DNA of 64,000 nt from Corylus avellana (Eukaryota; Streptophyta; Magnoliopsida; Fagales; Betulaceae). The position numbers were made by a program, and so were the translations under genes. The notes under the pieces are model-generated. The model was not told where the DNA came from. It made no database searches and worked only from the letters and a program-made list of their open reading frames with translations. Shown piece after piece: positions 3,438 through 61,030 of this stretch. The DNA lies in NCBI RefSeq assembly GCF_901000735.1, contig NC_081542.1, positions 42,109,064 through 42,173,063 of the forward strand, read 5' to 3'. Every line of letters starts with the position of its first letter. Positions within the stretch are counted from its first letter, which is position 1.

Positions 3438-4580
3438 CTACTCTTCAAATTCATTTCCTCCCTTGACAGAAACTAGGGTCTCCATGTAGGTAACCAATTG
3501 CATCGAGTCTCTGTCTCCATGAATTTGGAGATCAGTCATTTGTTTGGTAGAGGGGTCATACAAGACCAGTTGTCCACCATTTTTATTCCAGAACATGATG
3601 TCATTCTTCCAAAATCCTAATGGTCGGCACATGTCACCTGCAGACGGTTCAATAGTAAAAAGCCTAGTCCAGGAGTCCTCAACACCAACTTTAAGCAACA
3701 ACCATATATCATACTGCCATTCTTCATCAACCGGCCTTTGAGCAACCATGGCAATCGATTCATTCAACACGAAAAGCGCTTCCCCAAAAGCATTATCAGG
3801 AAGTGGTGTTTTTAGGAATACCTCATCGCTCATGTCAAATGACAAAACAAATAAGTCCCGCATATGAATATGATCAACATATGCCAGCCAAGAACCCATC
3901 CCAGTGGTGTATGTCATCGGACCATGATGATCTTCAAAAATAAAACATGGGGGTCCATCAACTTTTCTCCAAGAATCGGTGCCTAAGCTGTATACCTCTT
4001 TTTGGTATATGATGTCCTGAACGTCTTGTGAAAAATAGCCGAAAGTGGGTTCATACATACTAACAAAGTTGATTATCTTGTAGTCATTAGTTTTGGCATC
4101 AAAACCAAATCCCGTACCTTGAATATGGGTGCAATAGCCAGCGGGGGCGAAGAGGGGCAGGTTTGATTCGGGGACAACCTTTGTTTCTTTAGTTGTAGGG
4201 TTCCATATAACAACATTCAATGTATCGTAAGCATGGAGACAAACGAGACCATTGCAAGAACCCACCACACAAATACAAAACTTCTCGCCGTTCTCAAAAT
4301 ACGTTCGAGGTAGAGGATGTGTAAGGGATATTTGGAGTTCTTCATAAGAAATGGTGGATATAACATAATAGTCCATTGTTTTGTTGAACGTATTAAGGAG
4401 AATGTGGGTGTTGCTGTTCTTGTTGTGTAGGAGGTGTTTTCTTACGAAGTTATGGTGTGTGATGAGAGCGTACCAGGATTTGCAGACGCACTTGAAACGC
4501 AAGAGAGAGACGACCGGAAGCCATAGCAGAATCTGCGTCACCAAGTCTTCAGGCAATTCGTTGGCCATCATCATCATCAT
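3438..4580 (-). CDS. F-box/FBA protein, SLF/SFB-like, copy 1
   Basis: Intact intronless 380-residue ORF, the usual size and structure of S-locus F-box proteins. Residues 8-48 form the F-box (LPEDLVTQILLWLPVVSLLR, then FKCVCKSWYALI), which binds Skp1 in an SCF ubiquitin ligase. The rest is an F-box-associated domain with typical landmarks: SCNGLVCL (108-115), WNPTTKET (126-133), GFGFD (157-161), EVYSLGTDSWR (195-205), LSFDM (246-250), SWTRLFTI (303-310), PLGFWKND (320-327), LVLYDPSTK (338-346). The start is a run of five ATG codons; which is used cannot be decided. In S-RNase systems such proteins recognise non-self S-RNase in pollen. This family is also large outside S-loci, so that role is inferred from the T2 RNase at 60 kb. 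It differs from the second copy only at H43 and K67. Confidence 0.9.
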   Translation of the reverse strand: MMMMMANELPEDLVTQILLWLPVVSLLRFKCVCKSWYALITHHNFVRKHLLHNKNSNTHILLNTFNKTMDYYVISTISYEELQISLTHPLPRTYFENGEKFCICVVGSCNGLVCLHAYDTLNVVIWNPTTKETKVVPESNLPLFAPAGYCTHIQGTGFGFDAKTNDYKIINFVSMYEPTFGYFSQDVQDIIYQKEVYSLGTDSWRKVDGPPCFIFEDHHGPMTYTTGMGSWLAYVDHIHMRDLFVLSFDMSDEVFLKTPLPDNAFGEALFVLNESIAMVAQRPVDEEWQYDIWLLLKVGVEDSWTRLFTIEPSAGDMCRPLGFWKNDIMFWNKNGGQLVLYDPSTKQMTDLQIHGDRDSMQLVTYMETLVSVKGGNEFEE

Positions 4581-4681
4581 CGAGTAATGGGTACGTGTGT
4601 TGCTTGGTTAGGGAAAGCAGAGATGATTCGCAAGGAGGGACACGAAATGTAAAAGAGAGATTGAAGTTCAACATTTGCCCA

Positions 4682-4756
4682 TTTGGTCTTGGGCTTGGGA
4701 TTGGGATTGGGATTGGGATTAGGCTTGGGCTTGGGCTTGGGCTTGAGCTTGAGCAG
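4682..4756. repeat. Hexamer repeat GGGATT/GGGCTT upstream of F-box copy 1
   Basis: About twelve tandem hexamers 100-175 bp upstream of the F-box start. On the gene's strand they read AAGCCC/AATCCC. The equivalent tract in copy 2 is shorter. It lies in the likely promoter or 5' leader. Confidence 0.85.
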
Positions 4757-5181
4757 ATTCGTATAAAATTTCTGTTAAATGAATTAGAAAAACTAAAGCC
4801 CACAAAAAGGCAAATGCCCGTAACCACTACTTACTTCATCCAAACCCATAAGGCTGTTATAATTTGGGCTTGGAAAGATTAGTATGGATGATGGAGTAGT
4901 ATATATTTGGCGACACATGCAGCAACATAAGGTCGTTATAATTTGACATTAGCATGTGTTAGCCTCCTCTCTTGGCCTGAATAACTTTATTTTCTACTTG
5001 GAATTTTCTCAATAATAATATGCATATACTGTCAGGCTTTTGATGAATAATCTCTCGTTGACATCAATCAATTCCTTTTTGTTTTTGTTTTGTTTGTTTT
5101 GTTTATCCAACCCCAATTAATTACGTAATTGACGTAACAACCACATTCAAATAATTAGGAAATTGGATAACACCAAAACTT

Positions 5182-6442
5182 ATTTTGAAAGGAAAAACAT
5201 TCCATACTCATTCATTGATAAAAGGTTGCGAGCAAGAGCTTTTTACAAACAGAGCAAAAAACTCTGAAGCAAATCATAGGCGAAGCTAAAGTTACAGTCA
5301 TCAACCAATTAGGCCAAACAAAGGCAATAACATTAGCTAACCCATGACTATTCATCAGGTTTAAGATTAGATCTGCACCAAATAGACACCATCTAATGCA
5401 TATGTAACGCTTATTCCTCGGCCCTGAGAGCAAAGAACCCCCATGCCGAAACTTATCCTCCTCAACCCAACAGCCAGGATAACGTTCACATCCACAACCC
5501 AAAGGTCTAGACCAAAAGCAAAAGTGGCAGATCATAGAAGGAGGACAGAGCCTTATTACAAACAAAAAAATAGGAAAGAAAAAACATACAAGGAAATAAA
5601 ATAGGAAAGTAAAAAACAAATACATGGAAAACGGAAATACAACAAAAGGAAGCCCACAATACAGGGAAAATAACAAGAGAAGCACACAAAGCTGATAACA
5701 GCAGCCGAAAGAAGGCTGATCGCGTACTGCCCAGAAACCGACGTGGAGGGTGGTGTTAGAAGCTCATTGCGAGGGACGTGTGAAAAGACCTGGCAGCTAA
5801 TAGTGGACGGCAAAGCAGACGCGGAGGAGATCAGCAACACACTCAAAGAAACTGAGGGGAGAGTTTAAGTGAATCCCCCAAGAGCGGCACCTACAAAGTG
5901 TGCTAAACAAGCAAAAACAACAAGAAACAAACACAGACACAACGAGAAACAAACGGCAAACAACAGGCAAAAACAAGAAAGGAAAAAAGCCACCAAAACA
6001 AAACATAAACAAATCACAGCCGGAGTGATGAATCCAATGCGAAAGGTGGGATGGATACTGACGGATCCAGAGAACGGGAAGGTGGGGCACACGTCGAGGT
6101 GGGTCAGACAGAGGAAGGGAGATCAAGCTAAGGCAAGCCGATCCAAAGCCAAGCCCGACCCAGACAAGGCACGATAGAGACAGATGGTGGTGGAAAAAGA
6201 CGGCACAGTGGAGAACGGCTATGCGGGCACAATGGCGAAGGGAGAAGGGCAAAACGCCAGAGAATAGAAGAAAAAGGAAAAAAAGGAGCGGCATAGAAAG
6301 AAGAAAACCGCACAAGTTGAAGGGGGCAAGGGGAGGAGGGAGGCATCCAACGACCGTCCCTCCTCCCCAAACCTGGGTTTACCTTACCTATGCGGCGCTC
6401 TAGAAAAAGAGCTAGGGTTTGGGAGAGAAGGAATAGGGTTTT
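5182..6442 (-). mobile_element. Non-coding retroposon family, copy in duplicate 1
   Basis: A 1.26-kb insertion flanked by the direct repeat ACCAAAACTT (5172-5181 and 6443-6452). On the minus strand it begins with a pyrimidine-rich segment containing AAACCCTAG, runs through T-rich low-complexity DNA and ends with ATGAATGAGTATGGAATG, a T/C tract and a short A run. That 3' end resembles the 3' ends of the LINEs in this window. The long ORFs here are low-complexity (F/C/L-rich) and not shared between copies, so I do not call genes. Relatives: 26662-27930, 14631-15691, 52713-52949. Confidence 0.7.
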
Positions 6443-6452
6443 ACCAAAACTT

Positions 6453-7165
6453 TTAAATATTAATATAAAAGAGAGCCCCTTCTATCTACACATGTTGTAA
6501 AACTAACTTTTACAATCTCCAATCAAAATTTGACACATAACTTCAAAACACAAAATGAAATAGAAGTAAAAACAACGTATCTTTAAACCAAATCAATTGA
6601 TCCACCAAACTTTTTCATTTTTTTCCATCCATTCTAACTTCATGCCTAAACCAAATCAATTGTTTCTTCTTTCTTTTTGCTCGTGTCAACTTTATATTGA
6701 ATGTTGTAAAAGTGTCATTTTACACATCCTGAATAAAGTTATTCTCAAAATATAATACTAATTCACTTGTGTAGAATTAGTATGCTTCCTAATTCATGGT
6801 GTGGTACTCAAAATAAAACCATGTACAACAAATTTCGTGCTCCCAAATAAGTTTTTTATTTTTGTAAAAAAAAAAAAAGATTAACTGCATAATTTGAATA
6901 AGATAATTTAATTACATCAAGGTTTGAGGATATATAAACAATCAACATTATGGTCTATATGAAGAAATGAAATTTCACTCAATTGCTATTACCATTATTA
7001 CAAACAAAGCTTTTTGTTTTTTATCTTTCACTCATCTTTTGTTCATTCTCATACAAGAGATTGATAAATCTACCATTGAATATGTAGGATCACATGTATA
7101 TCACATAAATTCAAAGGTAAATTTACAATAAAAAAAAATATATGAATAAAAGATAAATGGTTAAT
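6453..7165. other. Intergenic, no gene seen
   Basis: AT-rich spacer between the retroposon and the decayed LINE, present also in copy 2 (27941-28690). No ORF, RNA gene or clear repeat seen. Confidence 0.7.
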
Positions 7166-7306
7166 TAACAACAATCTCGTGTCTCTCTTCTCTCTAAGCT
7201 CTTTGCTAGGGTTTACAAAGGTAGAGTTTCTTCTTGAACCTTTTATAAGGGAGAGCTAGGGTGAGTTTTTGACTTTTTTTTCGAAGGGTACGTTCATACA
7301 GGAGGT

Positions 7307-8884
7307 ATGGGGAACATAGCTGAAGATCTGATGAATTTGTGGGGAAAGTTTTCGTTGTTGGAGTAGGAAAGCACAAGGATTGAGATACAGGAGAATGTAT
7401 ACAATCCAATAGTGCAGTAGGGTTTAACTTGCCTGGTGGGAAAACTACTGTCGGATAGGCACATTAGCAAGGAGATTCTCAGAACTCCTTTGATACGTGC
7501 ATGGAGGCCAGCGGGGAGGGTTTTGTTTAAAGACTTGGGGGGCCTAATCTCTACCTCATTGAATTTGAGCTTGAATGGGATAAGTCTAGGATTATGGAGG
7601 GTCGTCCATGGACCTTTGATGGAAATCTCGTATCTCTGTCAGAGTTTGACAGTCTCACGCCTCCCACGGAGTTGGACTTTAATAAAGCAGCCTTTTGGGT
7701 GAAAATGTTTAACCAACCTCTTGCCTGCATGGGAAATGAGGTGGGGTTTCAAATTGGATCAACAGTTGGCGAGGTGGAGGACGTCAACGTTCTGAATGAT
7801 GGTATCGATTTGGGAGAATACCTGCAGGTGAGGATTATCCTAGATTCATCAAAATTGCTATCACGAGGACGAGTTTTGAAGTCGAAAGACAAAAGGATTT
7901 GGGTAGCTTTTCAGTAAGAAAAAGATCCCAAAATATTGCTTCACTTGTGGTGTGATACGATATGGAAGTAAGGGGTGCAGAAAGCTGGGAGGATGTACGC
8001 TTCAAGGGGCGGAGAGTGAGATGGAGTTCGGCCTTTGGCTCAGGGCAACTTCACCAAATCGTAGACATGGTTATGGTGGAGGACGTCCAAGAAATTCTAA
8101 GGCGGATAGGACACATGATGCAAGTTTTTCTGATGGAGGAACAAGCCACACCTCCAATAGTGGCTAGAGTGGAGATGGCAGAGGTATGGAGGAGGGTTAA
8201 GGCGGAGGGCAGCCAGACTTAGAGGAGTCAACTCCGCAGGGAGAGGTTGGTCATTTTTCGATGAGACCGCTGACCACGCTAGAAAAGGAAAAACCTAGTT
8301 ATGGCAACCAAGTCATGGGATCTGCTAGGAAGTCATGTCGGATTGGGATTTTTAAGGCTCCCCAAATCTTGGGATTGGAGAAAAAATCAAGGGATTCTAA
8401 TCGTAGTAGTGATTCCCGAGCATTTATAGTAGAGGAGGTGCAAGGAAATTTACAAAAAGAAAGAGGATCAAATGTGAATGTAGGTCAATGGGATGCATTA
8501 AAGGAGAAGATGGTATGGGGGACAGCTGGGATAGATTACGTAGGGAGGCTTCAAAACAATATCGCAAACTATTTCAATGACATGGAAGGCTCCTCCAACA
8601 GTTTTCCGCCAACTATCTTCCTAAACAAGAAAGGGATGAGTTTGGCTAAAGAGAAAGGAGAAGAAAGGGGAGTACGGGAACTAAGGCTCCAAAGGAGGTA
8701 AGGGGGCAGCATCAGTACTGGAAACGGGTGTGTCGTTAGGGGACTAAAGGGGAGGAAAGGAGTGGAAGTGATGTTATTTTGGGGGGCTGACAATGGGAAG
8801 AGAGGAAAAGCAACTGCACCGGAGTACATCTCCACAACAACAACTATGGCAGAGGCTTGAACACAGCCCCGTCGTGATCAATGA
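7307..8884 (+). pseudogene. LINE A ORF1 remnant
   Basis: Begins with an ATG giving MGNIAEDLMNLWGKFSLLE and then a TAG; copy 2 reads GAG GAA there and is open. Later pieces include RPWTFDGNLVSLSEFD and FWVKMFNQPLACMG, the DUF4283-type core of plant L1 ORF1 proteins, which bind RNA. Frame changes are needed several times. The reading frame ends in a TGA overlapping the ATG of ORF2 (ATGA at 8881-8884), the same arrangement as in the intact LINE at 58029. Confidence 0.7.
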
Positions 8885-12900: not shown

Positions 12901-12980
12901 ATTTTGTTATCACTAAGGTTTTTTTGAATAAGAATCTATCTTTCTTCAAAAAAACAAAAAAACAAAAACAAAAGAAAGTG

Positions 12981-13362: not shown

Positions 13363-13377
13363 GAGTCTTTATTCCTT

Positions 13378-18974: not shown

Positions 18975-19490
18975 AGATGGCCATTGTCAACAACGATCCT
19001 GCTCTTCAAATACATTTTCTCTCTTGACAGAAATTACGGTTTCCTTGTAAAAAATCAACTATGACTAGGTACAATCAATTTGGAGATCAGTCATTTTTTT
19101 GGTAGAGGTGTCATACAAGACCAACTGCCCACCATATTTTTCCAAGAACATAGTGCCATTCTTCCAAAATCCTAATGGTTGCATAATATCTGTAAAGGGT
19201 CCAATTGTGAAAAGCTTAATTCAGGAGTCCTTAACACCAATTTCAAGCAACAACCATTTATCAAAGCAAATAATATACATCCATTCTTCATTCAAATCAT
19301 CCCAGATACCATCATCAGCCATCACACCAACTGCCATAGCAATTGATTCATTCAACACGAAAAAGTCTCTAATACAAATCAAAACATCATTTGGCAGCTG
19401 TGTTTTTAGGAATACCTCATGTCAAATGACAAAACACCCTCCTAATCATCTGCATATGCCCCCCAACAAGCCATCCCATTGATGTAGGTA
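18975..19490 (-). pseudogene. F-box/FBA gene relic (C-terminal part)
   Basis: Aligns along its length with about 3461-3915 of the intact F-box gene, covering the FBA C-terminal half. Matching pieces on the plus strand include GGAGATCAGTCATTT, CTTCCAAAATCCTAATGG, CAGGAGTCC and CAATTGATTCATTCAACACG. Small indels and stops break the frame and the F-box motif itself is absent. It is more diverged from the two intact genes than they are from each other, so it comes from an older duplication. It shows that the F-box family had expanded here before the recent duplication. Confidence 0.85.
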
Positions 19491-20090
19491 TGATCCAAGT
19501 GTTTTTAGGAACCCAGGTTTCAAAAGAAACTTAGGTTTGTAGGTATGATCAAAGTCAAAAACTACCAATAAATTTGATTTTAGCACGCAGAAGTATTCCA
19601 ATGCCACATGAGGTTAACTAGAGATCCAAACAATAGGGGCATACTAAGTAGTCCTTTATAGAATTCAAACATGCAACCTACTCAGGAAGGAACTTAAGCA
19701 TATCATGATGCTAATGATGAAAATTGAAGTGCAATTAACACTCAGAATATAGCTTAATCAGGAAAATGAAACCTTATTAGATAGAAGTCCTACTATCAAA
19801 CACCGGTGCGCATGACTTACGGAGAAAGCTAGAAATTCTCTGTTTTCAGCACTCTGATGAAGAAAAGATTCCATCTCAATCAATCAAGCTTATTATTCAT
19901 CACCATAATGGTATTCCCATGTAGAAAACTTCTAGTATTTATAGGAGTATAAGAAGAAAAGAATTTTGGAAAAAACTAATAGGAAAGGAAGCTCCTGGAT
20001 TGAGTTGTAGGAGGTGGATTTCTAAAGAGACTTGAGATGACTTTATATAGAGGCGATCCAAGAATCTACATGTAACCGAAAGGCTTAGGT

Positions 20091-21339: not shown

Positions 21340-21525
21340 GGATATTATGAAAATAGGGGAAGTACTGAAAACATTGACCAACAAGCCCTAATGTGCTATC
21401 TCATTTTTATCAAATCTGACCTCTAATCAAAGAGCTCAATTTGAAAATTATGTCCACTGTCCCCATCAACCATATCTAAGTACCAAAACATCTTCAAGAG
21501 TAAATTGATATGAAATACCAGGAAG

Positions 21526-21530
<5 letters not shown>
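21340..21530. repeat. Relic of F-box 3' flanking sequence at the duplication junction
   Basis: Resembles 2945-3170: ATGAAAATAGGGGAAG, AATCAAAGAGCTCAAT and AAATTATGTCCACTG occur in the same order. Copy 2 of the large duplication starts inside it (21493), so the junction lies in an older F-box flank repeat. That suggests the duplication arose by unequal exchange between such flanks. Confidence 0.7.
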
Positions 21531-21565
<35 letters not shown>

Positions 21566-21698
21566 AGGCACAGTTCACGAAGTTCATGAAGTTCTCGTGT
21601 CATTTGTCAAACCTTCACACCTTTTATATGAATATCACAATTTTCAGATTCAAATGATCAAGAAACTTAGTAAACAATCAGATTTTATTTTGCAAGGA

Positions 21699-23260
21699 TC
21701 ACCAAAAATAACTTCCTGGGTGACTGCATATATTTAATACCATTACATACCTCTCTGGGGGTAGCCCTACAGCTGTACAGATCAGTGTCCGCAAATTGAT
21801 TTGTGAGTGACAACCAAAAAATTCTACCCCTGGAAAATGAGAAAGATATTCATACCCAACTATATTGAGTTGAAACCTGAAAATAGTAAAACAATGGTAG
21901 AGAAAGGGAAAAGTGTACTGGTGAGAGTAATATTTCCCTCCAAGCCCCTCTTGCCGTTGCCCATAGTTTTCATATAGGGTAGACACCATTCACATAGAAA
22001 TTAGCAGGATCTTCTCTCCATGTGGTATACTCCTTTGAATATCTCTCCTTAGCATCCACTGCCTCCAAATTCAGAATATGATTTAGTCTTATGTAAAAAG
22101 AACTAAAGAGAGAACATAAATCAAGGACCATTATAAATCTACAATTTAACTAAAGCAAGTTTCAAGCTAGCTAGAGATGACTAAATTCAATGTGTAAGAT
22201 ATAAAGTAAATCAATTTAATAATGTCACTACGAATTAGATAAAGTTGCATCAAATACAGCTCTGAAGTTTTAGAACTCTCTGTATAAAAGGAGACAGACC
22301 ATTTTTCATGCCTTCAAGAAAAAATAGATGGGCTTCCTACAGTGAATCAACGAAAACAAGTGGTTCTTCCCTCCCTTGCCATATAACTTCAGCAGTGGAC
22401 TGCATTAAACACTTAGAGATAAAATTGGTCAAGTACTAAAAATCAGCACACTAAATTGTGTTAGTTGAACCTTAGCACGAGATATTGGACTTGAAAAGTG
22501 TTGATCAAATATTTGCCAAGGCTTTTCTGCACCTCTCACTCCAGTTTCTGTTAGGATTGATAAGTTTGAGCTTCCTTGAATGTAAATATAGCAACCAAGT
22601 TAGTTGCTAGATACTCTAAAGAATGAAGTGGTTTTTTTTTTTTTTTTTACAAGTGTGGATCCAAGTGTTGCTTTTTACTACCACGTTATCCAGTTGTATG
22701 ACAATTGTACATGAGTCTACTAAATAGCATTACCCTCAATATAATGATAATAGACAAGGTGAAGAGTGGGACTTGAACTTTGTTCAACCATAGAAGCCTT
22801 CAAGAAAAATGATTAACTAAGTTGGGTTAAATGGTTCTTTAAATCCTAATACAGTGAAAGAGAATAGCAACATAAACATTTGTATATAGTGAAAATCAAT
22901 TTTAGCAGTTCAGGTACTTCTGTTTCTTGTCAACGAATGAAACTGAAAATACTTCGTTTTTTAATGTGCATAACTTTGAATTTTTTTTTTTTTTTTTTTC
23001 ATTCTAACATGATTATAGGATAATGCTGAAACATAAGAGAAGATGGATAAAGATTTTAAAAAAGCAGAGGAGGAACACACCTGAACTTTACTCTCTTCAT
23101 TCCAAGAGCTATGGCCGTGCCTCACAAGAGTTACCTTCTTAGACGATGACAATGACTGATTGGAAAGTGACGTCGTTGCTCTTTGAAAATCAAATGCACC
23201 ACCAGTCATAGAACCATCATTTTGGAATTTCTTTGTCGTAAAATGCGTCATTGGAATCAA
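21699..23260 (-). pseudogene. 2-carboxy-D-arabinitol-1-phosphatase-like pseudogene, copy 2
   Basis: Near-identical to 207-1770, with the same exon pieces (RHG motif piece at about 23082-23260) and the same two in-frame stops. The few differences include an R-to-G change in the 21699-21989 frame and single-base changes near the RHG exon. It shows no restored function and no further decay, as expected for very recent duplication or conversion. Confidence 0.8.
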
Positions 23261-24930
23261 CTACAAATTTGATCAAATATATGCAAGCACCTTGCGGATT
23301 TCTTAGAGCAACTGAACGCTTGATATACATTCTAGTTGATATACGTTCAGTTCATATATTAGATCACAAGATTATCTCATAAGAAAGATTTACTATTGAT
23401 AATTTGTAATTAGCAGACACTGCGCAAACTGGGTTCAGGCATATCATTAGATTCATACCATCATAACTCTACAACTTTGGGAATCTAAAATAATGGAATC
23501 CCTAGAAACAATTCAATACCCCTATAGATAATGATTCAAACAATGATATCTATCCATTCTCCAAATGCCAAGGCAACACAACTAAAACAACAATACATTT
23601 AGCAGATGGACAGAATATGCTTCAAAGTATCTTGACAAAAGGGCAATATGCTTGCTTAACAGCCTGGCTTTATGCACCAAAGATCTATGAACCTCCTACT
23701 TCCTATTTGTAACGCAGAGTAAAGTGACAACCCAATTTTAAGTAAAATTGTACATCAACAGCGCATTCTCTCTTAGACAAACAGGCACAAAAAATTAGCT
23801 ATAGCTGTTCACAATGGCCAGCAAATGATCATTGAGTAAAATAAATACAACTATTTTCACTTTCAACTTCCTTAAAAATATATATATATATATTGGGACA
23901 ATAACAAGTTTAGCACTTTTATCAGTTTCAAATCAATAAGGAATTTCTTTCAACCTATAGGCAGTTAATTTCCATCTCTACGGAGGACTCAAGCAGCCAA
24001 TTTTTATGCAAAACTAATCTCAAAGAGCTCCTATCAGTGAAGAATTTCAGAGAGCTTCTTGCTATTTTTGACTGAAATTATTACTATTAAAAAAAAAAAA
24101 AAAAAAAATGTCAAAGTCAGAATTAAGACATTTTATTTACTTTCAAACAATTGAACTCTTTGGACCCATCAGGCCATCACCGTTCCGAATTTGCCCAAAA
24201 AGTTTGTTTTTTCAACCAGCTGAACAATCTTTTATAGCAACCTGCATTACCTATTACACTTAAAGCATCTATGTTGCCTTAAAAGCTTAACAACCCTTAT
24301 CAACTTTTACTTCATATAGTTCACGGACAAAATTTCTGTTTGTAAAACAAGGTAGCCATAAGCCTTTTCGAAGTGAAATTTCAAATTTTCAAATATAAAC
24401 CCAAATAAGTGTTATCATTAACAAACCAAAATACTTTTAGGCATTGGATTTTATGAAAATAGGGGAAGACTGAAGAAAAAAAAAAAAAAACATTGATTAT
24501 CAGGTTCAAATGTGCTATGTCATTTTTTTATGAAATCAAAGAGCTCAATTTTGAAAATTATGTCCACTGGTCCCATCAACCATACTTTAAGTACCAAAAC
24601 CTCTTCAAGAGTAAATTGCTATGAAGTAGCTAGAAAGAAATATCAATATATATATATAAACGAAACACTAAACTTATGGGATGGTGAAAAGATAATTCCT
24701 CATGATAGTTAAAATAAAGATGGTGTGAAGAACCCTCGTACAACTGCTTATTTAACCATGAAAATCTTTCAGGGGGGGGGGGGTTTGTTAAATGTAAGTG
24801 TATAAATACTTGAGAAAGACAACTTTGACAAGAATAAGCATAATATATTATCTCAGCACATATATGCTGCCTGAAACACAATTGGAACAGATATAGAAAC
24901 ATGGGCCCTCAAGCATTGTCAACAATTGCC
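23261..24930. other. Intergenic, no gene seen
   Basis: Copy of 1771-3437, almost base for base. Differences are mainly run lengths (for example the AT run near 23880 and the A run near 24090). Confidence 0.8.
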
Positions 24931-26073
24931 CTACTCTTCAAATTCATTTCCTCCCTTGACAGAAACTAGGGTCTCCATGTAGGTAACCAATTGCATCGAG
25001 TCTCTGTCTCCATGAATTTGGAGATCAGTCATTTGTTTGGTAGAGGGGTCATACAAGACCAGTTGTCCACCATTTTTATTCCAGAACATGATGTCATTCT
25101 TCCAAAATCCTAATGGTCGGCACATGTCACCTGCAGACGGTTCAATAGTAAAAAGCCTAGTCCAGGAGTCCTCAACACCAACTTTAAGCAACAACCATAT
25201 ATCATACTGCCATTCTTCATCAACCGGCCTTTGAGCAACCATGGCAATCGATTCATTCAACACGAAAAGCGCTTCCCCAAAAGCATTATCAGGAAGTGGT
25301 GTTTTTAGGAATACCTCATCGCTCATGTCAAATGACAAAACAAATAAGTCCCGCATATGAATATGATCAACATATGCCAGCCAAGAACCCATCCCAGTGG
25401 TGTATGTCATCGGACCATGATGATCTTCAAAAATAAAACATGGGGGTCCATCAACTTTTCTCCAAGAATCGGTGCCTAAGCTGTATACCTCTTTTTGGTA
25501 TATGATGTCCTGAACGTCTTGTGAAAAATAGCCGAAAGTGGGTTCATACATACTAACAAAGTTGATTATCTTGTAGTCATTAGTTTTGGCATCAAAACCA
25601 AATCCCGTACCTTGAATATGGGTGCAATAGCCAGCGGGGGCGAAGAGGGGCAGGTTTGATTCGGGGACAACCTTTGTTTCTTTAGTTGTAGGGTTCCATA
25701 TAACAACATTCAATGTATCGTAAGCATGGAGACAAACGAGACCATTGCAAGAACCCACCACACAAATACAAAACTTCTCGCCGTTCTCAAAATACGTTCG
25801 AGGTAGAGGATGTGTAAGGGATATTTGGAGTTCTTCATAAGAAATGGTGGATATAACATAATAGTCCATTGTTGTGTTGAACGTATTAAGGAGAATGTGG
25901 GTATTGCTGTTCTTGTTGTGTAGGAGGTGTTTTCTTACGAAGTTTTGGTGTGTGATGAGAGCGTACCAGGATTTGCAGACGCACTTGAAACGCAAGAGAG
26001 AGACGACCGGAAGCCATAGCAGAATCTGCGTCACCAAGTCTTCAGGCAATTCGTTGGCCATCATCATCATCAT
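24931..26073 (-). CDS. F-box/FBA protein, SLF/SFB-like, copy 2
   Basis: Intact, intronless, 380 residues, with the same F-box (about residues 8-48) and FBA domain as the gene at 3438. By eye only three bases differ over the coding sequence: two change residues (H43Q at the end of the F-box, K67T) and one is silent. The same five-ATG start is present. The upstream hexamer repeat is shorter here, and the 5' flank differs at about 3%, so regulation could differ even though the protein hardly does. Presumed SCF ubiquitin-ligase substrate receptor. A pollen S-determinant role is inferred from the nearby S-RNase-like pseudogene and is not shown by the sequence. Two such similar proteins would be expected to share targets. 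Confidence 0.9.
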   Translation of the reverse strand: MMMMMANELPEDLVTQILLWLPVVSLLRFKCVCKSWYALITHQNFVRKHLLHNKNSNTHILLNTFNTTMDYYVISTISYEELQISLTHPLPRTYFENGEKFCICVVGSCNGLVCLHAYDTLNVVIWNPTTKETKVVPESNLPLFAPAGYCTHIQGTGFGFDAKTNDYKIINFVSMYEPTFGYFSQDVQDIIYQKEVYSLGTDSWRKVDGPPCFIFEDHHGPMTYTTGMGSWLAYVDHIHMRDLFVLSFDMSDEVFLKTPLPDNAFGEALFVLNESIAMVAQRPVDEEWQYDIWLLLKVGVEDSWTRLFTIEPSAGDMCRPLGFWKNDIMFWNKNGGQLVLYDPSTKQMTDLQIHGDRDSMQLVTYMETLVSVKGGNEFEE

Positions 26074-26174
26074 CGGGTGATGGGTACGTGTGTCGCTTGG
26101 TTAGGGAAAGCAGAGATGATTCGCAAGAAGGGACACGAAATGTAAAAGAGAGAGATTGAAGTTCAACATTTGCC

Positions 26175-26232
26175 CATTTGGGCTTGGGATTGGGATTGGG
26201 ATTAGGCTTGGGCTTGGGCTTGGGCTTGAGCA
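26175..26232. repeat. Hexamer repeat upstream of F-box copy 2 (shorter allele)
   Basis: About eight GGGATT/GGGCTT units, fewer than the tract at 4682-4756. A deletion also removed part of the flank near 26255. Confidence 0.85.
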
Positions 26233-26544
26233 GATTCGTATAAAATTTCTGTTAAATGAACTAAAGCCCACAATAAGGCAAATGCCCATAACCACTACTT
26301 ACTTCATCCAAACTCATAAGGCCGTTATAATTTGGGCTTGGGAAGATTAGTATGGATGATCGAGTAGTATATATTTGGCGACACATGCAGCAACATAAGG
26401 CCGTTATAATTTGACATTAGCATGTGTTAGCCTCCTCTCTGGGCCTGAATAACTTTATTTTCTACTTGGAATTTTCTCAATAATAATATGCATATACTGT
26501 CAGGCTTTTGATGAATAATCTCTCGTTGATATCAATCAATTCCT

Positions 26545-26575
<31 letters not shown>

Positions 26576-26661
26576 GTTTTGTTTATCCAAACCCAATTAA
26601 TTATGTAATTGACTTAACAACCACATTCAAATAATTAGGAAATTGGGTAACACCAAAACTT

Positions 26662-27930
26662 TTTTTGAAAGGGAAAACATTCCATACTCATTCATTTATA
26701 AAAGGTCGCGAGCAAGAGCTCTTACAAACAAAGCAAAAAGCTATGAAACAAATCATAGCCGAAGCTAAAGTTATAGTCATCAACCAATTAGGCCAAACAA
26801 AGGTAACAACATTAGCTAACCCATAACTATTCATCAGGTTTAAGATCAGATTTGCACCAAACAGATACTATCTAATGTATAGGTAGCGCTTATTCCTCGG
26901 CCCTGAGAGCAAAGAACCCCCATGCCGAAACTTATCCTCCTCAACCCGATAGCCAGGATAACGTTCACAGTCACAACCCAAAGGTCTGGACCAAAAGCAA
27001 AACTGGCAGCTCATAAAGGGAGGACAGAGCCTTATTACAAACAAAAAAACAGGAAAGAAAAAACATACAGGGAAATAAAATAGGAAAGTAAAAAACAAAT
27101 ACATGGAAAACGGAAATACAACAAAAGGAAGCCCACAATACAGGGAAAATAACAAGAGAAGCACACAAAGCGGATAATAGCAGCCGGAAGAAGGCTGATC
27201 GCGTACTGGCCGGAAACCGATGTGGAGGGTGGTGTTAGAAGCTCATTGCGAGGGATTCGTGAAAAGACCTGGCAGCTGACGGTGGACGGCAAAGCAGGCG
27301 CGGAGGAGATCGGCGACGCACTCAAAGAAACTAGGGGGAGAGTTTAAGTGAATCCCCCAAGAGCGGCACCCACAAAGTGTGCCAAACAAGCAAAAACAAC
27401 AAGAAACAAACACAAACACAAACACAAACACAACCAGAAGCAAACGGCAAACAACAGGCAAAAACAAGAAAGGAAAAAAGTCACAAAAACAACATAGAAA
27501 CAAATCACAGTTGGAGTAATGAATCCAATGCGAAAGGTGGGATGGACACTGACGGATCTAGAGAGCAGGAAGGTGGGGCACACGTCGAGGTGGGTCAGAC
27601 GGAGGAAGGGAGATCAAGCTAAGGCAAGCCGATCCAAAGCCAAGCCCGACCTAGACAAGGCACGGCAGAGACAGATGGTGGTTGAAAAAGATGGCACAGT
27701 GGAGAACGGCTATGCAGGCACAACGGCAAAGGGAGAAGGGCAAAACGCCAGAGAATAGAAGAAAAAGGAAAAGGGGCGGCACAAAAAGAGGAAAACCGCA
27801 CAAGCCGAAGGGGGCGAGGGGAGGAGAGAGGCATCCAACGACCGTCCCTCCTCCCCAAACCTGGGTTTGCCTTACTTGTGCGGCACTCTAGAAAAAGAGC
27901 TAGGGTTTGGGAGAGAAGGAATAGGGTTTT
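26662..27930 (-). mobile_element. Non-coding retroposon family, copy in duplicate 2
   Basis: Counterpart of 5182-6442, flanked by ACCAAAACTT at 26652-26661 and 27931-27940. It keeps the same 3' end and low-complexity middle, with an extra run of ACAAAC units near 27410. No conserved reading frame is shared with copy 1. Confidence 0.7.
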
Positions 27931-27940
27931 ACCAAAACTT

Positions 27941-28690
27941 TTAAATATCAATATAAAAGAGAGCCCCTTCTATCTACACATGTTGTAAAACTAACTTTTA
28001 CAATCTCCAATCAAAATTTGACACATAACTTCAAAACACTAAATGAAATAGAAGTAAAAACAACGTATCTTTAAACCAAATCAATTGATCCACCAAACCT
28101 TTTCATTTTTTTCCATCCATTCTAACTTCATGCCTAAACCAAATCAATTGTTTCTTCTTTCTTTTTGCTCGTGTCAACTTTATATTGAAGGTTGTAAAAG
28201 TGTCGTTTTACACATCCTGAATAAAGTTATTCTCAAAATATAATACTAATTCACTTGTGTAGAATTAGTATGTTACCTAATTCATGGTGTGGTGCTCAAA
28301 ATAAAACCATGTACAACAAATTTTGTGCTCCCAAATAAGTTTTTTTATTTTTGTAAAAATTAAAAAAAAAAAAAGAAAAAAAAAAAGAAGAAAAAAAGAT
28401 TAACCACATAATTTGAATAAGATAATTTAATTACATCAAGGTTTGAGGATATATAAACAATCAACATTATGGTCTATATGAAGAAATGAAATTTCACGCA
28501 ATTGCTATTACCATTATTACAAACAAAGTTTTTTGTTTTGTTTTTTTATCTTTCATTCATCTTTTGTTCATCGTCATACAAGAGATTGATAAATCTACCA
28601 TTGAATATGTGGGACCACATGTATATCACATAAATTCAATGGTAAACTTACAATAAAAAAAAATATGAATAAAAAATAAATGGTTAATTA
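27941..28690. other. Intergenic, no gene seen
   Basis: Copy of 6453-7165. Contains an expanded A-rich run near 28360-28398. Confidence 0.7.
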
Positions 28691-30412
28691 ACAACAATCT
28701 CGTGTCCCTCTTCTCTCTAAGCTCTTTCCTAGGGTTTACAGAGGTAGAGTTTCTTCTTGAACCTTTTATAGGGGAGAGCTAGGGTGAGTTTTTGACTGTT
28801 TTTTTTCGAAGGGTGGGTTCATACAGGAGGTATGGGGAACACAACTGAAGATCTGATGAATTTGTGGGGAAAGTTTTCATTGTTGGAGGAAGAAAGCGCA
28901 AGGATTGAGATACAGGAGAATGTATACAATCCAATAGTGCAGTAGGGTTTAACTTGCTTGGTGCGAAAACTACTGTCGGATAGGCACATTAGCAAGGAGA
29001 TTCTCAGAACTCCTTTGATACGTGCATGGAGGCCAATAGGGAGGGTTTCGTTTAAAGACTTGGGGCCTAATCTCTACCTCATTGAATTTGAGCATGAATG
29101 GGATAAGTCTAAGATGGGATAAGTCTTGGATTATGGAGGGTCGTCCATGGACCTTTGATGGAAATCTCGTATCTCTGTCAGAGTTTGACGGTCTCACGCC
29201 TCTCACGGAGTTGGACTCTAACAAAGCAGTCTTTTGGGTGAGAATGTTTAACCTACCTTTTGCCTGCATGGGAAACGAGGTGGGGTTTCAAATTGGATCG
29301 ACAGTTGATGAGGTGGAGGACGTCAACGTTCTAAATGATGGTTTCGATTTGGGAGAATACCTGCGGGTGAGGATTATCTTGGATTTATCAAAACCGCTAT
29401 CAGGAGGAAGAGTTTTGAAGTTGAAAGACAAAAGGATTTGGGTAGCTTTTCAGTAAGAAAAAATCTCAAAATATTGCTTCACTTGTGGTGTGATATGACA
29501 TGGAAGTAAGGGGTGCAAAAAGCTGGGAGGACGTAAGCTTCAAGGGGCGAAGAGTGAGATGGAGTTCGGCCTTTGGCTTAGGGCAACTTCACCAAATCGT
29601 AGACATGGTTATGGTGGAGGATGTCCGAGAAATTCTAAGGCGGATAGGACACATGATGCAAGTTTTTCTGATGGAGGAACGAGCCACACCTCCAATAGTG
29701 GCTACAATGGAGATGGCAGAAGTATGGAGGAGGGTCAAGGCGGAGGGCAGCCAGGCTTGGAGGAGAAAACTTTGCAGCAAGAAGTTGGTCATTTTTCGAT
29801 GAGACTGCTGACCACGCCAGAAAAGGAAAAACCTGGTTATGGCAAGCAAGTAATGGGATCTGCTAAAAACACGGAAGTCATGTCGGACTGGGATTTTTAT
29901 GGCTCCCCCAAATCTCGGGATTGGAGAAAAAATCAAGGGATTCTAATCATAGCAGTGATTCCCGAGCAATTATGGTAGAGGAGGTGCAAGGAAATTTACA
30001 AAAAGAAAGAGGATCAAATGTGTATGTAGGTCAATGGGATGCATTAAAGGAGAAGATGGTATGAGGGACAGTTGGGATAGATTATGTGGAGAGGCTTCAA
30101 AACAATATCGCAAACTATTTTAATGACGTGGAAGGCTCCTCCAACAGTTTTTTGCCAACTGTCTTCCTAAACAAGAAAGTGATGAGTTTGGCTAAAGAGA
30201 AGGGAGAAGAAAGGGGAGTACGGGAACTAAGGCTCCAAAGGAGGTAAGGGGGCAGCATCAGTATTGGAAACGGGTGTGTCGTGAGGGGGCTGAAGGGGAG
30301 GAAAGGAGTGGAAGTGATGTTATTCTGGAAAGGAAAGAGGAAGGAGGTAGCTACAGAGGAGGAATGGAGGGCTCACAATGGGAAGAGAAGAAAAGCAACT
30401 GCATCAGAGTAC
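28691..30412 (+). mobile_element. LINE A, copy in duplicate 2, 5' segment (ORF1 remnant)
   Basis: Matches 7166-8826. ORF1 begins MGNTTEDLMNLWGKFSLLEE (the first stop of copy 1 is absent here) but stops at a TAG after NPIVQ, also present in copy 1. The piece RPWTFDGNLVSLSEFD follows. It keeps about 40 bp that copy 1 lost near 8785. It ends at an LTR element inserted at AGTAC (30408-30412). Confidence 0.85.
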
Positions 30413-39848: not shown

Positions 39849-39850
<2 letters not shown>

Positions 39851-52612: not shown

Positions 52613-52712
52613 NNNNNNNNNNNNNNNNNNNNNNNNNNNNNNNNNNNNNNNNNNNNNNNNNNNNNNNNNNNNNNNNNNNNNNNNNNNNNNNNNNNNNNNN
52701 NNNNNNNNNNNN
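52613..52712. other. Assembly gap (100 N)
   Basis: Hides the right TIR end and the 5' part of the retroposon whose 3' end follows. Confidence 0.99.
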
Positions 52713-52949: not shown

Positions 52950-53231
52950 GTGTCAAATCAATTAAGGATTTGATTTGATTTATTTATGCTTTTAGTTTGT
53001 TGTTTGTTTGCGAAAAAATGTACACGGGAAAAGAAATTTGGTTGAAATTTGAATACGGGGTTTCTCTGTTGTGGAATATGAGTAATTATTGAGCCCATAA
53101 TTATGATGCATATAGATCGAGATTATGAAAAAATCAAAAAGCATAGCATTAAATTCATATGGTCCCAAAATGTATATCTGCGGGCATTTAATCATTTTTA
53201 TTAAATTACGTTATCAATGATGTAATGTATT

Positions 53232-53484
53232 TTTTTTTTTTTTTTTTTTTTGATAAACTGCAGACTTCTCATTAAAATTCAGGCATCTAGAGCAACTTGC
53301 TCTGAGAGCACGGCCTCACGTATACAATCAGGGGGTATATCTTTCCAACAAAATTCATGGAGATATTCCATAGCATGTTTGGCTAATAAGTGAGCCACCT
53401 GGTTACCTTCCCTCCCAATAAAAGTGAGCTGCCACCTTTGGAATCCCTGGAGTTCCAATTTTATGTCCTCTATGATGTGCCCCA
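53232..53484 (-). mobile_element. Small 5'-truncated LINE insertion
   Basis: Poly-T (the A tail on the minus strand), then 250 bp coding for the end of a LINE RNase H domain (HHLGHIIEDIKLELQGF, WQLTFIGREGNQVAHLLAKH). Flanked by a 16-bp target duplication AATGATGTAATGTATT (53216-53231, 53485-53500). The frame's apparent start at 53524 is host DNA, so it is not a gene. Confidence 0.9.
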
Positions 53485-53500
53485 AATGATGTAATGTATT

Positions 53501-53847
53501 AATATTGTAGTTTAATTCCTTCATTAATTATTATGTCCATAGTGCACAAACAAAGAATTAAGGTAGGTATAGACGCGTAGGGTAATTGAATCAAATTAAT
53601 ATTTTTCTCATATATATATATATTTGAAAGTAAGGATTTTTCTGATATTGTTAACCAGTGCATTTATTGATGCAATTCATTGTTAATCAAGATGGATCGG
53701 AGCATTAATTACTCATATTTAGTTTTCGTTTCTCCTTCCGCTTCCTTATTGCCACAATGCCATTCAATGCATATATATAATTCTTACAGCTAGTTATTGA
53801 AAATTCTGCGAGAAGAAAGAAATTAATAAAGACTTCACTTGGAAAGC
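53501..53847. other. Intergenic, no gene seen
   Basis: AT-rich, with a short AT run near 53611. Nothing recognisable. Confidence 0.6.
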
Positions 53848-53910
53848 AGTTTTGTAATATTTTTTTTTTTTTTTTTTTGAAATAGGAATCTTCTCTCATT
53901 CATATAAAGC

Positions 53911-56900: not shown

Positions 56901-58032
56901 TGGAAATCAGATTTGTTTTGCGACGTTGATTGGCACATGCGTGATAGAATTTTGTGTTGCGATCTCCTTTCATAAGCCAATCTGCCTTTGCCCTTTGTTT
57001 CCACTTCATATCCTCTTGATCCAATAAGGATTCAAGGTCCTGCTGAATTGTTTTAAGCTCCCCTACAGCCCGTGGAAGGTCACTGCCTTGTGCTTCATTT
57101 AGTTGCTGTTTTAGTCGTTCAATAGCTGCTGGTGCCAAGCCAGACACTCTCCTTCTCCATCTGGAAATGTTATTTTTACAGCTAGATAACTTCTCCCCCA
57201 GCTGAGTCCAAGTGTCACCCACTACCGAAAGTTTTTTCCAAGCTGTAAGGAAAGCATCTTGATACCCCGGGTCAGACATCCAGCAGGCTTCAAAACGAAA
57301 AAACCTCCCCTTCGATTGATTTAAACGCTGCCCCAATAGCTGTAACACCAAAGCTGCATGATCCGAGCTAGTCATGGTTTCAACCATTACTTCGGCATTT
57401 GGAAAAAAGTCTCTCCACCCCGAGTTAGCTAGCCCTCTATCCAATCTTTCTTTAATAAATTCATGCCCTTCTCGGCAATTGGTCCACGTATATTTGGGTC
57501 CCCTATACCCCAAATCAGTGAGTTCGCAAAAGTCCAATGCGGATTGGAAACTACGTAATTGGGTATTTGACTTAACCCCTCCGCCCCATTTTTCTGACAT
57601 GCACACCACTTCGTTGAAATCACCCAGGCATAGCCACGGGTCCGGAGAGAGGCTTGCCAAATGACGTAATATATCCCAAGCCGCACTTCGTTTAGTAGCA
57701 GCCGGTTGGCCGTAGAATCCCGTAAATTTCCATTGTGCATTGGAAATTGGATCAGTCACTATACCATTAATATGTCGGCAACTGTAATTTTGTATCTCAA
57801 CCTTAATCTCATCGCTCCATAACAGGGCCAAGCCACCACTTTTTCCGACACAATCCACAACAAATAAATTTTTAAAACCCAGTTTACACCGAACAAACTC
57901 CATTTTTTCTTTCCGTGCTTTGGTTTCCATTAGGAAAACCAAAAAGGGACACTTCTCCTTTACCAAAAGGCATAGGTCTCGAACTGTCCGAAGGTTCCCA
58001 AGCCCTCGGCAGTTCCAACTTAGAATCCTCAT
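53911..58032 (-). pseudogene. LINE C ORF2: endonuclease, RT, zinc region, RNase H, one TAG
   Basis: 1,373 sense codons broken only by TAG at 55528-55530 (codon 835). Order: APE-type endonuclease (codons 1-230: MRILSWNCRGLGN, LCLGDFNEVV, SSDHAALVL), RT (about 450-750: EFRPISLCNVLYKLISKVLA, KLDMSKAYDRVEW, GLRQGDPISPYLFLICAEAL, catalytic FFADDSLLFC), then FW-TAG-GH. After it come the Cys/His region (CPICGLEEETALHILWECP) and RNase H with catalytic acids in LNWDASIKKD, EAGAGLMAI and FEGDSKIVVDG. It nicks target DNA and copies LINE RNA there. The TAG replaces what relatives normally have as a second Trp. Two proteins, or readthrough, are alternatives to simple loss. Confidence 0.9.
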
Positions 58033-59546
58033 TGCGGTCGGCGGGGCTGTTCAACAGCCGCCGCCATCCCCGAACCATCTTTTGAAATAGCCAAACCTTC
58101 ATTACAAACAATTGTTTCAGACTCCACCAGATTTAAATCATCCTTTGAATTGCATTTTTTCCGTTTCTCCTCTGTCTGTCCAGAATACGTTTCTACCAGT
58201 TTGTCGAAAACTCTACGGTCTCGCTTCTTCGTGCTTATTTTTTCTGGGCTTTCCATGGAAAACAGCTGGTTCCCTTTGATGGACCTTGCCACTTCAGAGA
58301 TAAAAGGGCCCATATATCCAGTTGGGCTCTTTGAAAATAACTCCTGGTCTAGTAAAGACTCCTTCTGTCGCTCAGTAATGTGATTAGCCTTTCCCCTTAT
58401 TTCTCCCTGCAATGTGGATTCGCCCTTATTTATTGCATCACACCTGCTTTCCTTATGGGAAATCCGTGTAACCTCCTCCCAAGATCCTGATCTGCCACAA
58501 TTTCCTCCCAAAGCTTTATTTGAAAAAAGCGCTCCCATATCTTTTTTTGAAAATTCAGAATCTCCTTGATTTCCTCCATTCTTCTCATAATCAATTCCAC
58601 AATTCCCTCCTTGATTCTCGCCTGAATTGCTGCTGTTACCATAATGAGCTTTTTGCGTCCCCTCTCCCGGAGATTCACCGGCAACACCTCCCCTACCGCC
58701 GGTTTGATGGGAGCTATTTGCCTCACGAAATTTCTCCTCCGTCGCCTTGTTATAATTGGAATGGGCTGGTCCCTTTCTTGCCGGAAAGCGACTGTTACTC
58801 CGCTCCGTTCTCCTGGTGGGTGAAGGTGCTCGCATCCACGGCCCATATTGGTTTGGCTCCTGTTGTCGGAGATTGCTTCTCCTAGGACATCCCAATCTTC
58901 CATGACAAATAGCCCCACACTGATAGCAAAATTTAGGTAAACGTTCATACTGAAATTTAATCAGATGCAAGTTTCCTTCAATATTAATCTTCCTTCCACG
59001 CTGAAGAGGTTTTGTTAGATCCATAAGGATTTTAACTCGGAGGAATTCCCCCCACCCCATACCCCGGGCATCCGTATCCACCGCCTCAACCACTCCCATG
59101 GAGGCACCGATTTTGCGACCAATCTCCCTTCCCATACAAGCTAATGGAAGATTGATCATCCGCACCCAAAACGCTGCCTTGTCAAAAATGAATTGTGATG
59201 GCGATTTGGTTCCATCAAAATCCTCAAGGAGAAAAAGGTTCCTTTCGAAGACCCACGGCCTCCCCTCCATCACCCTTTCCTTATCCTTGGGATCACTAAA
59301 TTCGATCAGAAACAAGTTCTCCCCAAGGACTTTGAAAGTAAAACTGTCTGAAAGTTTCCACCATTGCATAAGAGATGTTCGGATCGTCTCTCGACTAATC
59401 ATCCGATCCGCCACCAACTTTGCCAAAACACAAGCTTGACCAAAAGTTTCCCCTTCGATCAGCTCCTCCCTCTAAAAAGACAATTCCACGTCCTCATCCT
59501 CCGTCAATGACAGGTTCTCCCACATTGTAGCTAGTTCGTCCGCCAT
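58029..59546 (-). pseudogene. LINE C ORF1: DUF4283-zinc knuckle RNA-binding protein, one TAG
   Basis: Begins MADELATMWENLSLTEDEDV and meets a TAG at codon 25 (59472-59474), then is open for 480 codons. N-terminal DUF4283-like domain (VMEGRPWVFERNLFLLEDFD, FWVRMINLPLACMGREIG), zinc knuckle CYQCGAICHGRLGC (C-X2-C-X4-H-X4-C, about codon 211), then a low-complexity polar tail. It binds LINE RNA as a chaperone in the ribonucleoprotein. Its TGA overlaps the ORF2 start in ATGA (58029-58032), which suggests ORF2 is made by termination-reinitiation. An internal start after the TAG would still leave the whole DUF4283 domain. Confidence 0.9.
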
Positions 59547-59671
59547 TCGGAATCAAAAACACCAAAAAGATTATATTCTTTCACAGGCCAAACCTGGAAA
59601 AATCAATACCTTCTCATCTAAGATTGACTAGAGAGAAAACTTTGTTAAGAACCTATAGTTTTGTAATATTT

Positions 59672-60085
59672 GTATTAGAAATTAAATAAAAATAATATAT
59701 ACAATATGATTCGCTCAATTATTGTTTAAGTAAAACCAATTAATTAATTATGTTGAGTAGGGAATTAATCTGTATATAAGAATATAATAATTAGTTAAAC
59801 AATGAAAGAATATTGAATATTATTATATATAATTATATCATCTTTTTTAATTGTATAAGAGCTAGCTAGCTAGTCACGTATATATGATTCATGTTAAGCA
59901 TAAATTTGTCGTGAGATTGGCCCATGTGATACAGTAAATCGAAATTGCCAAAATAATGAAATCCAGGCTCTTCTTATTATAATTAGTAGGTAGGTAACAA
60001 TTGAAGAAGAAAAGATCTCAAAGGCATGCATTTGGGAAAATAACATAAAGAGCCCTAGGCCAGCACTATCTACATTGGAAATGTA
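59672..60085. other. Intergenic / 3' flank of the RNase gene
   Basis: Very AT-rich. No ORF. Probably contains the 3' UTR of the RNase T2 pseudogene; no polyadenylation signal stands out. Confidence 0.5.
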
Positions 60086-61030
60086 TCATGGAAGAGGAAG
60101 AGCATGCGTGCCCTTCTGACCACACGGCATAATACTACTCTTCGATGTACAGTTTATGAATTGAAGTCCAGTGTTGTCGGTACAGAACCATATCTCATGT
60201 ATCTGAGTCACCTTGTTCTATCCACTGAAGTCGAAGTTGCATTTAATGTGCATTTCCAGTGGCCGGCCGAGTTTCAAGCCCACTACAGCTTGGATGGCAC
60301 TCTTGAAGTATTGAACTATATATTTCTTACCAATACTGATTCCTGTTATAGAAAATTAAAGAGAAAAGAAAATAAGTAGGAGTTTTTTTTTAGAAAAAGA
60401 AAGAAAGGAAAGAAAGGAGAGATTAATGCAAAATAAACCAGCTGCTTGATTGAGCTCCTGAACTAGCTGGAGAACTCCGAGATCATTGGCCCTGTCAACA
60501 GCTATTTTAAAGTAATCATGTTGAGTGAAACTGGTAAAGGCTCCATGTTGATCCCATTCGTGCTTCCAGAATATCTCGTTAGGCATTGTGACTGTTAATC
60601 CGGGCCAAATTTGTTGCATTGTTTGGTAGAGAGCTAGGTCACTTTTCACCTGCATGCATAACAAATAACAAATTAATTAATTATGAGAATATTGCATGTA
60701 AAGTTGAACATATATAGTAAAATAAGAAATCGAAATTTCCTGAAAGTACTAAAACAGAAATATATATAGGCATGAGAAACATAGTTACCTGAACATTGTC
60801 AAATGGTTGTTTAACAGGAGGAGGAGGGACTGGGGCCCCATTGTTCATCTCTTGCCATAAGCCATGGATGGTGAAGTGGTTTGGAACATTTGTGCAACTT
60901 AACTTATGCGAGCTCCTAAGTTGCAGAAGGACTTCGGCCATTGTATAGTGAGGTAGTAAAAATCAATAGCCAACGTTCCAGCTTGAAAACACAAAGCACA
61001 TACTAGCAAGCAAGCAAAAACTAGCTTCAT
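60086..61030 (-). pseudogene. S-RNase-like RNase T2 pseudogene
   Basis: Three exons: 60789-61030, 60439-60649, 60086-60342. Introns of 139 and 96 bp have GT-AG ends, the second with a strong pyrimidine tract. A signal peptide (MKLVFACLLVCALCFQAGTL-A) precedes IDFYYLTIQWPKSFC, a typical mature T2 N-terminus. Then come catalytic box I FTIHGLW, intron 1 in the following variable stretch (the position usual for S-RNases), catalytic box II FWKHEWDQHG, and in exon 3 the Cys-containing C-terminal pieces HIKCNF and EIWFC...FINC. Defects: a frame change in exon 1 (TAA in the signal-peptide frame at 60899-60901), TAG at 60218-60220, and HGAF where T2 enzymes have HGTC-like, losing a disulfide Cys. A working copy would be a secreted RNase, in S-loci the pistil determinant that degrades RNA of self pollen tubes. 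Confidence 0.88.

Follow-up and report, generated by a model that had tools for sequence, protein, structure and literature searches.

Type-1 S-loci, the self-incompatibility (SI) loci of Solanaceae, Plantaginaceae, Rosaceae and Rutaceae, pair an S-RNase with F-box genes of the SLF, SFBB or SFB kind. Relict or duplicate loci of related content have been described in cacao, cotton, common bean and clementine (text of PMC5598434), as well as on Antirrhinum chromosome 7 and elsewhere (text of PMC8774079). The latter source, a survey of SI origins, notes in its text that neither wild cabbage (type-2 SI) nor cowslip (type-4) was found to have a type-1 S-like locus, and it suggests that a new SI arose only after deletion of the old locus (PMC8774079). 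In hazelnut, SI is described in the main text of PMC11152071 as sporophytic and governed by a single locus, which the texts of PMC8921776 and PMC11152071 fine-map to 193.5 kb of linkage group 5 containing the PIX7 and MIK2 kinases. Here we analyse a 64,000-nucleotide stretch of the Corylus avellana genome (hereafter the window), in which F-box/FBA genes lie together with a T2 RNase gene. We find that class III T2 genes and F-box/FBA genes are linked at a site other than the SI locus, and we consider it probable that the window is a block of an ancient Fagales type-1 S-like locus, most likely relict or repurposed.

Linked T2 RNase and F-box genes in hazelnut and other Fagales

The genome searched comprises 369.9 Mb in 12 contigs, and a whole-genome search placed the window at C2:42109064-42173063, contig C2 being 50,858,233 bases long. 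T2 loci were located by a Ribonuclease_T2 profile search of the genome. For the F-box family a window F-box protein served as the query, and matches of at least 54% were grouped into loci; the resulting counts are lower bounds and leave the window relic outside the list. Between 41.98 and 43.36 Mb of C2, a span of 1.38 Mb, lie at least 41 F-box loci and eight T2 loci. Among these F-box loci, 30 are near full length (26 without stops) and 11 are partial. The closest subgroup (at least 78%) numbers 17 loci, including one on C11, and all but one of the 17 are full length and free of stops. Family members outside the cluster occur at C2:4.758-4.789 Mb (three) and C2:8.16 Mb (one).

The T2 genes of the cluster are of two types, A at 42.086, 42.1695 (the window gene) and 42.189 Mb, and B at 42.907, 42.944, 43.0786, 43.0833 and 43.103 Mb. 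Four of the eight are intact: the two type A genes outside the window and an inverted type B pair (L014 and L015, 43.0786 and 43.0833 Mb). The two members of this pair have a single difference in 678 coding bases, and the pair may stem from recent inverted duplication or be an artefact of the assembly. The type B copies at 42.907 and 42.944 Mb are broken, while the 43.103 Mb locus shows exon 1 alone before an N run, with an F-box gene approximately 0.3 kb away in the assembly. An earlier note on this DNA, made from its letters alone, had raised the possibility that the broken window RNase marks a self-compatible haplotype. This idea had to be abandoned, since the gene is one of eight T2 loci, the other seven comprising four intact copies, two broken ones and the exon at the assembly gap. 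A second intact T2 gene, which the same note had proposed to look for nearby, is present at both C2:42.086 Mb (P0121) and C2:42.189 Mb (P0122); these are the closest other T2 genes, and the loci L009 and L010 encode P0121 and P0122 exactly.

Within the window, the features of which are collected in Table 1, the reported set of two intact, intronless F-box/FBA genes and one relic on the minus strand was borne out by open frames, by Pfam matches (F-box E-values 2.9e-11 and 2.8e-11, FBA_1 3.4e-05 and 3.3e-05, for FB1 and FB2 respectively) and by the resemblance of the relic to P0037. The two intact genes are only three base substitutions apart. They lie in duplicated DNA, again as reported, the best-matching parts of which (1-6878 and 21493-28369) are 97.2% identical. 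No protein among the best 120 of 636 F-box homologues exceeds 82% identity to FB1 or FB2, though the database does contain proteins of the same chromosome; both genes may have been missed by the existing annotation.

The window T2 gene runs on the minus strand through exons 61030-60789, 60649-60439 and 60342-60086. An intron after catalytic box I had been noted and is there, but it is not the sole one, a second also being present. The contrast drawn between a broken RNase and intact F-box genes holds: the T2 gene carries a small frame-shifting insertion near 60900, judged against L009, and an in-frame TAG at 60220-60218, whereas FB1 and FB2 are open. Its second conserved active site (CAS II) reads FWKHEWDQHG. 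Because the segment bearing it recurs at L009 and L010, the T2 copies have evidently spread by segmental duplication. An Rfam scan of the window gave no match.

Table 1. Features of the window (positions counted from its first base; ORF, open reading frame; LINE, long interspersed nuclear element)
Feature	Position	Strand	Remarks
Segmental duplication, copy 1, bearing FB1	1..8782	.	97.2% over first 6.9 kb, 92.5% beyond
FB1, intact F-box/FBA gene	3438..4580	-	380 aa, intronless, open frame
F-box relic, FBA part only, other subgroup than FB1/FB2	18990..19493	-	61% to P0037 over 168 aligned residues
Segmental duplication, copy 2, bearing FB2	21493..30328	.	Partner of 1..8782
FB2, intact F-box/FBA gene	24931..26073	-	380 aa, intronless, open frame
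Retrotransposon gag ORF	41781-43730		649 aa
LINE: DUF4283/zinc knuckle ORF, then endonuclease/reverse transcriptase and RNase H-like ORFs	53911-59426		Stops shortly downstream of the decayed T2 gene
T2-bearing segment common to intact T2 loci	59657..61508	.	L009 95% (59657-61322), L010 90% (59657-61508)
T2 RNase pseudogene of type A, with three exons	60086..61030	-	92% to P0121

A second T2/F-box locus (L017, L043) lies on the other arm of C2, at 4.749-4.789 Mb. Its T2 gene (P0125) has an F-box gene approximately 8 kb distant, belongs to the same T2 clade as the cluster genes and is accompanied by F-box genes of the same family. C2 thus has two sites at which T2 genes and the window F-box subfamily occur together; for two of four T2 sites an approximate binomial calculation gives 2e-4, a value to be read with the sites having been chosen after the data were seen and one of the four later appearing class-I-like.

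Homologues from other species were drawn from the best 120 of 636 for the F-box proteins and the best 120 of 778 for the T2 proteins, and the F-box tree, which holds no SLF, SFBB or SFB, was built from 46 of the 120 listed proteins, the two window genes and two loci. In Carpinus fangiana there is synteny, the T2 gene FH972_000496 being numbered between the F-box fragment 000495 and the F-box genes 000498 and 000500. FB1 and FB2 are sister to FH972_000500 (support 100/97), then to 000498 (92/82), and the Carpinus T2 forms one clade with the three hazelnut type A genes (100/100 in the 63-row T2 tree described below). In Carya, the T2 gene I3843_07G025000, which pairs with P0125 (87/88, same tree), is numbered near F-box genes 07G023800 and 07G024200 of the same F-box family. 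Juglans T2 P0126 and Morella T2s P0127 and P0128 are probably on the same chromosome as the F-box genes P0064 and P0082. Alnus is represented among the best 120 F-box homologues, and no Alnus T2 is found among the best 120 T2 homologues, a weak hint that Alnus lost its T2. No SLF is named among the best 120 F-box homologues, nor was one found in a Protein Data Bank (PDB) search. The T2/F-box pairing is old, being common to hazelnut, Carpinus and Carya.

This recurrence, together with that at C2:4.75 Mb, bears on the notion that the two families are neighbours without functional connection, that is, secreted and perhaps defence-type RNases beside a fast-duplicating FBA family in a repeat-rich, repeatedly duplicating region. 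Segmental duplication does expand both families in the window region, F-box clusters lacking T2 genes also evolve fast in hazelnut (see below), the 10 kb examined at the site of a type A pseudogene, C1:27.0 Mb, contain no F-box gene, and T2 genes of plants commonly have F-box genes nearby according to the text of PMC5598434. Since the pairing nevertheless recurs at a second hazelnut site and in two further genera, we rate mere adjacency as the less probable account, albeit one deserving serious consideration.

Phylogeny, introns and catalytic residues of the T2 RNases

Three T2 trees were computed, with 14 Prunus rows as the S-RNase reference and without S-RNases of Maleae, Solanaceae, Plantaginaceae and Citrus. 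The first, of 63 rows, comprised 56 of 118 new homologues, P0121-P0123, the window row and three PDB rows; removal of 11 long-branch rows gave the 52-row tree, and the third was obtained from that set by dropping one further row and adding two partial hazelnut rows. In the 52-row tree, the F-box-linked T2s of Fagales (hazelnut types A and B and the C2:4.75 Mb gene, with those of Carpinus, Juglans, Morella and Carya) form one clade with support 98/93, which rises to 99/98 in the third tree. Its inner order is unsure because several rows are long. Class I/II rows occupy a separate branch (99/97), as do the Malvaceae T2s (100/99), and the Prunus S-RNases make up another clade with RNase MC1, Arachis and two Fagaceae T2s (88/76). 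Constraining the Fagales clade and the 14 Prunus rows to group as one was rejected by the approximately unbiased (AU) test (p-AU 0.0141). The tree rules out the window T2 both as a class I or II gene and as a member of the Prunus S-RNase clade. A tree of this kind had been proposed as the check on S-type ancestry, and its outcome is divided: the grouping with class I/II that would count against such ancestry is not seen, but a position apart from the Prunus S-RNases is. Since classes I and II are excluded, the hazelnut cluster genes can be assigned to class III.

The two Fagaceae T2s on the Prunus S-RNase/MC1 side, P0214 (Lithocarpus SO802_001140) and P0226 (Castanea dentata ACB092_09G193900), are placed there with support of 94/87 in the 63-row tree and 88/76 in the 52-row tree and have an S-RNase-like N terminus; it is possible that they are S-RNase-lineage genes.

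Type B retains FTIHGLWP and EWTKHG, stretches that we take to be the catalytic motifs. Hazelnut type A reads FTIHGLWQ and EWDQHG, with the histidines kept, where Carpinus has WP and DKHG, and these replacements may weaken catalysis. The two intact type A RNases differ with a nonsynonymous to synonymous rate ratio (omega) of 0.47 at a synonymous distance (Ks) of 0.166.

Both types contain two introns, in phase 0 after CAS I and in phase 1 after CAS II. Matched to the text of PMC5598434, though not to its figure, these fit positions 5 and 9, or pattern III-A, which the same text records for T2s of cacao, cotton, castor and others. S-RNases, in contrast, are said there to have introns at position 5 alone or at 1 and 5 (PMC5598434), a pattern that hazelnut types A and B do not share. 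The predicted isoelectric points (pI) are 6.92 for type B, 7.58 for P0121, 8.44 for P0122 and 8.75 for Carpinus P0123, two of the four (P0122 and P0123) falling inside the S-RNase range of 8.10-9.73 given in the text of PMC5598434. The looser rule in the text of PMC4451870 asks for a pI above 7.5 and one or two introns; by this rule, type A would qualify in both respects.

Map position, selection and possible function

The S intervals of C. avellana and C. heterophylla have, among others, genes for 3-dehydroquinate synthase II and aldose 1-epimerase in common (texts of PMC8921776 and PMC11152071), and these two families served to place the mapped S-locus on C5. The synthase family gives 10 of its 12 exon matches at C5:33.005-33.033 Mb (the other two are on C6), and one of several aldose epimerase genes is at C5:33.037-33.038 Mb. 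With the marker families on C5 and the window on C2, co-segregation with SI is not seen, judged by position alone. That the C2 cluster is the operative hazelnut S-locus, as its type-1-like gene content might suggest, is therefore rejected on map position and is highly improbable: SI co-segregates with receptor-kinase genes of linkage group 5 (texts of PMC8921776 and PMC11152071), and the synthase and epimerase genes lie together at C5:33.005-33.038 Mb. Neither 'F-box' nor 'ribonuclease' occurs in the main text of PMC11152071. The earlier note's wording, an S-locus or S-locus-like region, survives in its second half, as the linkage is large, real and repeated on C2, in Carpinus and in Carya, but not in its first, because SI is on linkage group 5.

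As a separate observation, a degenerate T2 (L018, C5:32.628-32.648 Mb), for which no CAS I exon was found, is accompanied by four F-box copies approximately 0.36 Mb from the S-locus marker genes (C5:33.005-33.038 Mb). In the tree it stands closest to class I, a placement that has no support, and the AU test does not reject a topology that unites it with the Fagales clade (p-AU 0.346).

Selection was estimated on gap-free codons of 15 open close paralogues of the cluster F-box genes, two of them identical, hence 14 distinct. By maximum likelihood (ML), omega is 0.35 in the F-box motif part (46 codons; p 0.044 against 1) and 1.33 in the remainder, including the FBA domain (304 codons; 2dlnL, twice the log-likelihood difference, 4.76; p 0.029 against 1). 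Pairwise counting gives 0.32 and 1.05, respectively, and 40-codon windows range from 0.33 to 3.70. Across 100 close C2 pairs the whole-gene median is 0.98, with 47 above 1, while 20 pairs of more distant C2 copies have a median of 0.82, one being above 1. The pairs are non-independent, one locus pair is identical, the copies were selected as open, and gene conversion is unaccounted for.

By analogy with type-1 S-loci, the secreted T2 RNases would act as cytotoxins, and the F-box proteins would serve as SCF adaptors that direct RNases to degradation; recognition would fall to the diversifying FBA domain, and docking to the E3 core would be the part of the constrained F-box motif. The F-box/FBA family is expanding in tandem beside the RNases linked to it. 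This toxin/antidote logic, a use in pollen and pistil and a descent from an SI locus are inferred, whereas gene content, linkage, synteny with Carpinus, tree position, the separate chromosome from the mapped S-locus and the selection pattern are observed. With the RNase copies partly decaying and most F-box copies open, a relict or repurposed S-like locus is most likely.

Some findings weigh against this interpretation. Support for the Fagales T2 clade is just 83/76 in the 63-row tree, which includes the long-branch rows, and that clade is not the Prunus S-RNase clade, so that descent from an SI locus is something we infer rather than observe. Furthermore, three T2-free control clusters (C5, C1 and C9; 20 loci, two of them short-framed and without pairs) yielded 25 usable pairs at Ks 0.02-0.6, and these are also fast, with a median omega of 0.62 and 3 of 25 above 1. 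Omega near 1 is consequently no hallmark of the T2-linked cluster; fast evolution is common in hazelnut FBA clusters and stronger in that on C2.

The same data can be read as an active second pollen-pistil barrier, in which intact RNases, chiefly type B, would work in the style and the F-box proteins in pollen, alongside the sporophytic SI of chromosome 5. Four intact T2 genes, the preserved FTIHGLWP and EWTKHG of type B, 16 of 17 closest F-box copies without stops and the FBA omega of 1.33 (p 0.029 against 1) would accord with it. However, the main text of PMC11152071 describes hazelnut rejection as sporophytic and single-locus, and the WQ and DQHG of hazelnut type A, compared with WP and DKHG in Carpinus, may mean weaker catalysis, leaving such a barrier unlikely. 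Equally doubtful is the bolder picture of two independent pollen-recognition loci in hazelnut, receptor kinases on chromosome 5 and a living, Fagales-specific style-level barrier of RNase and F-box genes on C2, its RNase lineage recruited independently of Prunus.

Comparison with known systems

None of the listed titles and abstract openings of open-access papers on S-RNase, T2 or F-box genes of Fagales describes this locus; subscription papers and supplements may hold an earlier notice of it. Six Fagales terms are absent from each of the main texts of PMC5598434, PMC8774079 and PMC9250077. Hazelnut has receptor-kinase sporophytic SI alongside a retained, large T2/F-box cluster that is common to Carpinus and partly to the walnut family. 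If the cluster descends from an SI locus, Fagales would allow the loss and regain of SI to be studied with both loci present, and hazelnut breeders would have a specific second group of genes in which to look for crossing barriers.

As in type-1 S-loci, the hazelnut T2 genes are tightly linked to many intronless F-box/FBA genes, here over approximately 1 Mb, with a conserved F-box motif and a variable FBA domain. Unlike those loci, the cluster lies off the mapped SI locus, its T2 clade is apart from the Prunus S-RNases and the intron pattern is another. Type-1 loci have one S-RNase per haplotype, whereas in hazelnut four T2 genes are intact, including one near-identical pair, and the pI of its proteins (6.9-8.4) places two of three distinct ones under the S-RNase range. 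The sporophytic S-locus of hazelnut itself (linkage group 5; PIX7, MIK2) belongs to the same species but to another chromosome and differs in gene content. Momordica RNase MC1, a non-S enzyme, is of the same protein family, and one source names the type B protein P0124 'ribonuclease MC-like', yet MC1 groups with the Prunus S-RNases, away from the hazelnut T2s.

The relict or duplicate type-1 S-like loci introduced at the outset resemble the hazelnut cluster, as far as the texts of PMC5598434 and PMC8774079 describe them, in holding more than one class III-type T2 gene and several F-box loci, some with stops, and the T2s of cacao and cotton share intron pattern III-A with those of hazelnut (PMC5598434). 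The hazelnut cluster differs from these loci in that the Fagales T2 clade is separate from that of Malvaceae and in that hazelnut SI maps to a receptor-kinase locus.

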